Shown: positions 24,998 through 45,217 of the stretch, piece by piece | How positions within the stretch are numbered: the stretch's first letter is position 1 | Layout: every line of letters begins with the position of its first letter | Assembly (NCBI RefSeq): GCF_000685155.1 | Contig: NZ_JMIY01000001.1 | Span: 416,414-480,413, forward strand | Source: Candidatus Methanoperedens nitratireducens | GTDB taxonomy: Archaea; Halobacteriota; Methanosarcinia; Methanosarcinales; Methanoperedenaceae | Length of the DNA stretch: 64,000 bases | Direction: 5' to 3' | Notes under the pieces: generated by a model | Seen by the model: the letters and a program-made list of their open reading frames with translations, nothing else | What the model was told of the DNA's origin: nothing | Databases searched by the model: none | Made by a program: the position numbers and the translations under genes

Positions 24998-25124
24998 ATT
25001 ATCCGTAATTCAATTATAGCTTGATAGATAAATAGATATCGCATGCTGCATTACATCATTCTATTAATCTCAGTTAGTTATAAGTAAGACTGGATATAAC
25101 AGTAAACTGAGGAGTGGAGGTTAG

Positions 25125-25508
25125 ATGAACGCAGAAGAGATTATTAAAACTATTACCGAGGAAATCGCCACTATGATTTCAACAAAGACAGTGATCGGAG
25201 AGCACATAACCATAGATGGCAGGATTATCATACCCGTTACCAGGGTCAGTTTCGGATTCGGAAGCGGCGGTGGTACAGGCAGGAATAAAGCAGGTGAAGA
25301 GGGGATAGGCAGCGGTGGGGCTGGAGGTGCCAGCATTCAGCCAATCGCCTTTCTTGTGATAACGCCAGAAGATGTACAATTGCTCAGTATCAAGGGAAAA
25401 GGTACGATCGCGCGTCTGGCAGAGATAATGCCAGAGATGATGGAGAAATACGAACAGGTTATGGAAAGACGCAAGAAAGAGGAATCGTACAGGACAGAGG
25501 AAGAGTAA
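25125..25508 (+). CDS. GerW/YtfJ-family protein
   Basis: 127 residues of the family named from the Bacillus sporulation protein YtfJ/GerW. The family pattern is clear: GEHITIDGRIIIPVTRVSFGFGSGGGTG, then a Gly-rich loop (GIGSGGAGGAS), IQPIAFLVITPEDVQLL, and a Lys/Glu-rich C-terminus. Archaea do not make spores, so the role is different and unknown. A strong GGAGG ribosome site precedes the ATG. The next gene is a DUF2953 protein, the same pairing as ytfJ-ytfI in Bacillus. Confidence 0.88.
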   Translation: MNAEEIIKTITEEIATMISTKTVIGEHITIDGRIIIPVTRVSFGFGSGGGTGRNKAGEEGIGSGGAGGASIQPIAFLVITPEDVQLLSIKGKGTIARLAEIMPEMMEKYEQVMERRKKEESYRTEEE

Positions 25509-31079: not shown

Positions 31080-31136
31080 ATAGTGGGCAGAAAATAAACT
31101 TTTTTATACCACCATAATCCCCCTTCTGCCCACTAT
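31080..31136 (+). ncRNA. Candidate structured small RNA, element A (U-tract/C-tract loop)
   Basis: A 13-bp perfect stem, ATAGTGGGCAGAA (31080-31092) with TTCTGCCCACTAT (31124-31136), closes a 31-nt loop. The loop has CTTTTTT (31099-31105), ACCACC (31108-31113) and CCCCC just before the 3' arm (31119-31123). TTATATATA at 31047-31055 is centred about 29 bp before the first stem base. It lies between two convergent genes, so it is not a leader of either. Elements at 35389 and 45160 share this plan. Confidence 0.6.
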
Positions 31137-35369: not shown

Positions 35370-35442
35370 GTTCGTTATACGACGAACCAGATAAGCGGGT
35401 TCTTTTTTCCACCAAAACCACCCACTCCCCTCCCGCTTATCT
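35370..35442 (+). ncRNA. Candidate structured small RNA, element B (two hairpins, C-rich loop)
   Basis: First a short hairpin GTTCGT (35370-35375) / ACGAAC (35382-35387). Then an 11-bp perfect stem AGATAAGCGGG (35389-35399) / CCCGCTTATCT (35432-35442) with a 32-nt loop holding CTTTTTT (35402-35408) and CCCACTCCCC (35421-35430). TATTTAAG at 35340-35347 lies about 26 bp before 35370. It is in the divergent region between the flippase-like gene and the mtr operon, upstream of the mtr promoter. Confidence 0.6.
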
Positions 35443-45020: not shown

Positions 45021-45159
45021 TATAGTTGCTCCTGCATTCCCAGAGGAACATGAAAATATAAAAAATACACTCTAACCTGTTGCCTGTCCGATAGAACTGT
45101 ATGCTTTTTAAACTGCCTGTACCGTTACTTTTAAATATGATGCTGTTATAGTAGGAGAT

Positions 45160-45217
45160 GATGGGCAGGTAAACTTCTTTTTTAATACACTAACCCCCAC
45201 TCCCCAACCTGCCCGTC
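45160..45217 (+). ncRNA. Candidate structured small RNA, element C (C-rich loop)
   Basis: An 11-bp stem, GATGGGCAGGT (45160-45170) / ACCTGCCCGTC (45207-45217), with one G-U pair in RNA, closes a 36-nt loop. The loop contains CTTCTTTTTT (45174-45183) and CCCCCACTCCCC (45194-45205). TTTAAATA at 45130-45137 is centred 26-27 bp before the first stem base, the usual archaeal TATA distance. It lies 61 bp before the tRNA-Ala gene and 140 bp from the divergent lplB start. It shares its last loop decamer with element B. Confidence 0.65.

Follow-up and report, generated by a model that had tools for sequence, protein, structure and literature searches.

The locus studied here raises the question of whether a short hairpin with a C-rich loop, designated element C, is a gene for a small RNA in its own right and, if so, what such an RNA would do. 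The hairpin lies in a stretch of 64,000 nucleotides from the archaeon Candidatus Methanoperedens nitratireducens, which was analysed as a whole and is called the window from this point onwards; the coordinates of the features are collected in Table 1. The stem of element C, 11 bp long, is formed by GATGGGCAGGT with ACCTGCCCGTC, and the minimum free energy of its fold (-17.5 kcal/mol, z -5.2) was equalled by none of 200 shuffled sequences. A direct reading places the TATA box and the beginning of the stem exactly where the original prediction had put them, the spacing between the two being such that a transcript is predicted to start on the first paired base. The same architecture had been claimed for two further elements of the window, A and B, and both of them do fold and are recovered, together with element C, by the family covariance model R1, the training set of which included C but neither A nor B. 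The decamer CCCACTCCCC, said to be common to B and C, is identical in the two, A carrying only a diverged form. What did not hold is the promoter spacing of element B, since its TATA-like box is situated approximately 50 nt ahead of the stem and not 26 nt. It should be added that mtrE is present in the window, and that a tRNA-Ala gene follows 60 nt downstream of element C, a near-identical copy of which precedes the same tRNA-Ala in a record of Methanoperedens nitroreducens (L036).

Table 1 Coordinates of the hairpin elements and of the candidate target site in the window
Feature	Position	Strand	Basis
Element C, TATA box TTTAAATA	45130..45137	+	direct read
Element C, 5' stem arm; predicted transcript start 45160	45160..45170	+	fold, covariation, model match E 2e-13
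Element C, loop: U-tract, then CUAACCCCCACUCCCCA core	45171..45206	+	core near-invariant class-wide
Element C, 3' stem arm	45207..45217	+	fold, covariation
Element B, ahead of the mtr operon; member of the family	35390..35441	+	model match E 1e-4; fold z -5.8
Element A, diverged family member	31082..31134	+	model match E 3e-4; fold z -6.1
Candidate target site GGAGUGGAGGUUAG, ribosome-site region of GerW/YtfJ	25111..25124	+	loop duplex -24.2 kcal/mol

Judging from the sequences compared, the hairpin is a class-wide family of putative small-RNA genes and not just a set of window elements. Its members share a plan in which a stem of 9-14 bp closes a loop with a U-tract and the near-invariant C-rich core UAACCCCC-ACUCCCC-AA. 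In an alignment of 36 members, which was not fitted to a covariance model, 96.6% of the stem cells pair and 8 of the 12 pairs exhibit compensatory changes. The larger alignment of 109 R1 matches, representing 95 distinct sequences and including some matches that were not chosen by an exact word, was fitted to R1 and is thus biased towards the structure; in it, 92.5% of the cells are paired and all 11 pairs contain compensatory changes. Among the 95 distinct sequences, double-change cells number 200 versus 71 in shuffles, and the covariation score reaches 0.492 versus 0.228 when shuffled, every slid version remaining at or below 0.14. Such compensatory changes across the stem indicate that the pairing is under selection, and the excess of G-U over A-C in the inner stem pairs (32 versus 8, i.e. 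4:1) points to the plus strand as the RNA strand. The original argument from covariation to RNA is therefore borne out by the class-wide data, including the further copies with compensatory changes that the proposed covariance-model check brought to light in related genomes, whereas the three stems of the window alone are thin evidence. The diverged members from Methanosarcina keep UAACCCC and ACUCCC(C)AA, the middle of the loop being altered or duplicated. In one type found in Methanosarcina (L159, L160, L164 and L165), the loop contains two copies of the C-rich motif (CCCCCCACTCCCCATATGACCCCCCACTCCCC), identically across species.

Concerning the distribution, the decamer occurs in 12 exact copies in the 3.2 Mb genome, and among the nine copies looked at, seven sit in hairpins of the family type with different stems and two outside such hairpins. 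With R1, the own genome yields nine copies at E ≤0.01 and 14 at E ≤1; two copies on contig C7 lie in tandem. A search with the exact word CTAACCCCCACTCCCC in named genomes returned at least 118 stretches, mostly from Methanosarcinales-type archaea; among the matches listed, nearly all archaeal copies possess a strong stem, which is absent from the bacterial ones, so that the latter serve as a natural negative control. At E ≤0.01, R1 matches 169 of the 171 genomes of the class, among them Methanoperedens, ANME-2, Methanosarcina, Methanolobus and Methanothrix, with 1-16 copies per genome. In the sample of the phylum, 106 genomes were matched, all of them within the class, and R1 matched none of the approximately 284 genomes of the phylum outside it, genomes absent from the phylum listing being taken as outside the class because that listing is ordered by kinship. 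The highest number, 16 copies, belongs to a Methanoperedens genome (G038), while Methanosarcina keeps 2-3. Tandem copies approximately 130-230 bp apart were seen in G038, in L057, L088, L108 and L040, and in the own genome (G000:C7:183895-184117). The sole apparent bacterial member, L092 (MAXT01000059.1, labelled Desulfuromonadales), has a copy and a promoter almost identical to those of the archaeal L112 and is probably a misbinned contig.

The surroundings of the copies are those expected of genes rather than of leaders. Across 101 members, the TATA box is usually placed such that a transcript would begin on the first paired base; a TATA-like box begins 30-31 nt ahead of the stem in the largest class, the second class, to which element B belongs, having a spacing of approximately 50 nt; runs of T occur within 50 nt downstream of 33% of the copies versus 9% of the controls. 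Only 4 of 104 copies overlap open reading frames (96% intergenic) versus 75% of random positions, and the downstream gene is on the same strand in 46 cases and on the opposite strand in 50. From this intergenic placement, the indifference to the orientation of the neighbours and the TATA spacing, the copies look like independent genes, each with its own predicted promoter. A role in cis, as leader or attenuator of the gene that follows (for element C, the tRNA-Ala), might be suggested by the fact that both C and the L036 copy precede that tRNA and that two copies precede a small gene; most copies, nevertheless, have no tRNA nearby, and orientation and context led to the rejection of a leader of either the next gene or the tRNA, which is considered highly improbable. 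The two copies ahead of a small gene (L001 1168-1544 and L005 1240-1543, contig C1 of the own genome) lie shortly before it and have near-identical leaders, the product being a protein of approximately 73-97 aa of the form MAEY...NAPN or NTPN; in contrast to the other members, these two may act in cis. Still less credible is a mobile or recombination element, MITE-like or attC-like, acting as DNA: multiple copies, palindromic ends and tandem pairs would suit it, but the loop is conserved and the stem varies with compensation and a G-U bias, the promoters stand at a fixed distance, and the copy number is stable in one genus (g21).

Element C would thus be a free-standing small-RNA gene belonging to a multicopy family, from which an RNA is presumably made, the stem protecting that RNA and displaying the loop. 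The most likely mechanism, to which we assign a probability of roughly 0.6 on sequence grounds, is base pairing with selected mRNAs: the loop would pair in trans with the G-rich ribosome-binding sites of a limited set of messages and block their translation. The U-tract may, speculatively, be an Lsm site.

The original prediction had pointed to purine-rich ribosome sites as partners of the loop, citing GGAGTGG before the GerW gene and GGGAGTG before a lipase gene, and both words are present, the former at 25111-25117. The lipase gene has no orthologue in 23 relatives, for which reason it was not retained as a target. The GerW/YtfJ gene (25125-25508, plus strand, PF09579) has a loop duplex ranking second of 808 starts, and it comes first when the own genome and that of a member of the Methanosarcinaceae are compared over 253 orthologue pairs, a screen that covered 864 kb of the former and 1.2 Mb of the latter, with the GerW gene of the second genome added from its own locus. 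In these 253 pairs, 4 of 200 shuffled loops matched the GerW result, and 12 of 200 matched it with some pair. In the tests of GerW leaders, for which the candidate had been pre-selected, the start codons were picked partly by their ribosome-site match and the sequences share ancestry, 13 orthologues from the genus, with the own gene left out, had a mean of -13.1, that of shuffled loops being -9.3 (1 of 500 equal), and 35 distinct leaders from Methanosarcinaceae and ANME-2 gave -13.4 versus -11.2 (20 of 500 equal). A loop complementarity of -11.5 or lower was found in 92% of the GerW genes and in none of 28 neighbouring genes. In the Methanosarcinaceae and ANME-2 leaders the complementary words vary (GGGAGUG, GGGGUU), as do the parts of the loop with which they match. 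The leaders from Methanothrix do not fit the loop, although Methanothrix carries the RNA, and with these and wrongly picked starts included, 22 of 300 shuffled loops were as good. Taken together, the evidence is modest and suggestive, and among the candidate targets the GerW/YtfJ mRNA has the strongest support.

Two further genes deserve mention. A gene for a LEA_5/KGG-type stress protein (L215 17491-18036; C2:217491 in the own genome) has GGGGAGUGAU ahead of its start, the duplex of which with the loop is predicted at -18.5 kcal/mol, making it a further candidate target. When the orthologue pairs are ranked by loop complementarity, the gene at C1:270967-271470 of the own genome takes third place, and its product, judged by eye only, looks like an Hsp20-type protein.

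As regards a more general role, the complementarity of the loop over 655 gene starts is no better than that of shuffled loops (33 of 60 equal), and the word complementary to the loop is not more common before ATG than a composition-matched G-rich word. These two results led to the rejection of an anti-Shine-Dalgarno function as a global statement, so that of the proposed masking of ribosome sites there stands, as a suggestive finding, the complementarity of the GerW leader kept in relatives, and not an excess at gene starts genome-wide. The lack of complementarity to starts genome-wide would also agree with a protein-binding RNA, the C-tracts and the U-tract of which bind a protein (KH, cold-shock, TRAM or Lsm) and the copies of which act as a sponge or scaffold. 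The loop core, near-invariant over the class, and the retention of the C-tracts even in rearranged or duplicated loops speak in the same direction, but the GerW leaders keep their complementarity to the loop via different words in different genera; on balance, protein binding is judged unlikely, and base pairing with selected mRNAs is preferred.

Archaeal regulatory RNAs known from more than a single genus are few, and a family that almost every genome of a class possesses would rank among the most widespread of them. This class comprises methane-making and methane-eating archaea, so the family would link RNA regulation to organisms controlling methane flux. Some of its hosts, Methanosarcina for one, are amenable to genetics, and with GerW/YtfJ as a named candidate target the mechanism is testable now.

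With regard to known systems, a search of the window and seven related loci against Rfam 15 at gathering thresholds yielded only tRNAs and one PYLIS element, none of them on the hairpin, and a description of the class-wide family was not found in the literature searched (subscription papers and supplements excluded); the family as such is thus probably undescribed. Among the archaeal RNAs, sRNA154 and sRNA162 of Methanosarcina mazei pair with ribosome sites, as proposed here, but the former has two stem-loops and a small open reading frame, and the latter, 191 nt long, forms three stem-loops, its reported homologues being confined to Methanosarcina, whereas the present family is class-wide and consists of a single hairpin of approximately 58 nt; membership of sRNA162 was rejected on its length and its three stem-loops. 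In Methanolobus psychrophilus, nine cold-induced conserved sRNAs have been reported (PMC5378194); the genus carries the family, and these RNAs, compared by description, could be related to it, the copy numbers being without obvious agreement. Another is M. mazei sRNA41, an archaeal sRNA reported to cover the ribosome sites of several genes (PMC6560208, PMC5867862), whose host belongs to the same class and which was compared here by description only. It may be a member of the family, and this would be compatible with the best explanation. That the family simply is that of sRNA41, with its mechanism already known and its breadth alone new, is nonetheless rather doubtful: the 2-3 copies in Methanosarcina genomes, the reported action of sRNA41 and the pairing of one cdh leader of the ACDS operon, GGAGCGGAGGTG, with the loop at approximately -16 kcal/mol favour it, but the pairing of the remaining cdh leaders is weak.

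The design of the family also has its parallels among bacteria. The cyanobacterial Yfr1, likewise short, occurs throughout one large clade and has an ultraconserved motif containing ACUCC that is left unpaired (PMC2190773); its motif ACUCCUCACAC is located between two stem-loops, whereas that of the archaeal family is inside one hairpin loop, and membership was rejected, neither ACUCCUCACAC nor the layout of two stem-loops being present. The alphaproteobacterial alpha-r14 or cuckoo RNAs (NfeR1, CcsR1-4), occurring in several copies, combine an ultraconserved unpaired C-rich motif with sequence-variable stems (PMC10746234, PMC10253847), a combination also present in the archaeal family. They carry the motif CCUCCUCCC in three hairpins and are bacterial; the archaeal family has UAACCCCC-ACUCCCC, one hairpin per gene, a U-tract and archaeal TATA promoters, and in the absence of CCUCCUCCC and of the three-hairpin layout it was not counted among them. 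Tentatively, and with somewhat less than even confidence, the family may be seen as an undescribed core regulatory RNA of an archaeal class, parallel to the cuckoo RNAs and controlling a small, conserved group of mRNAs centred on GerW/YtfJ.
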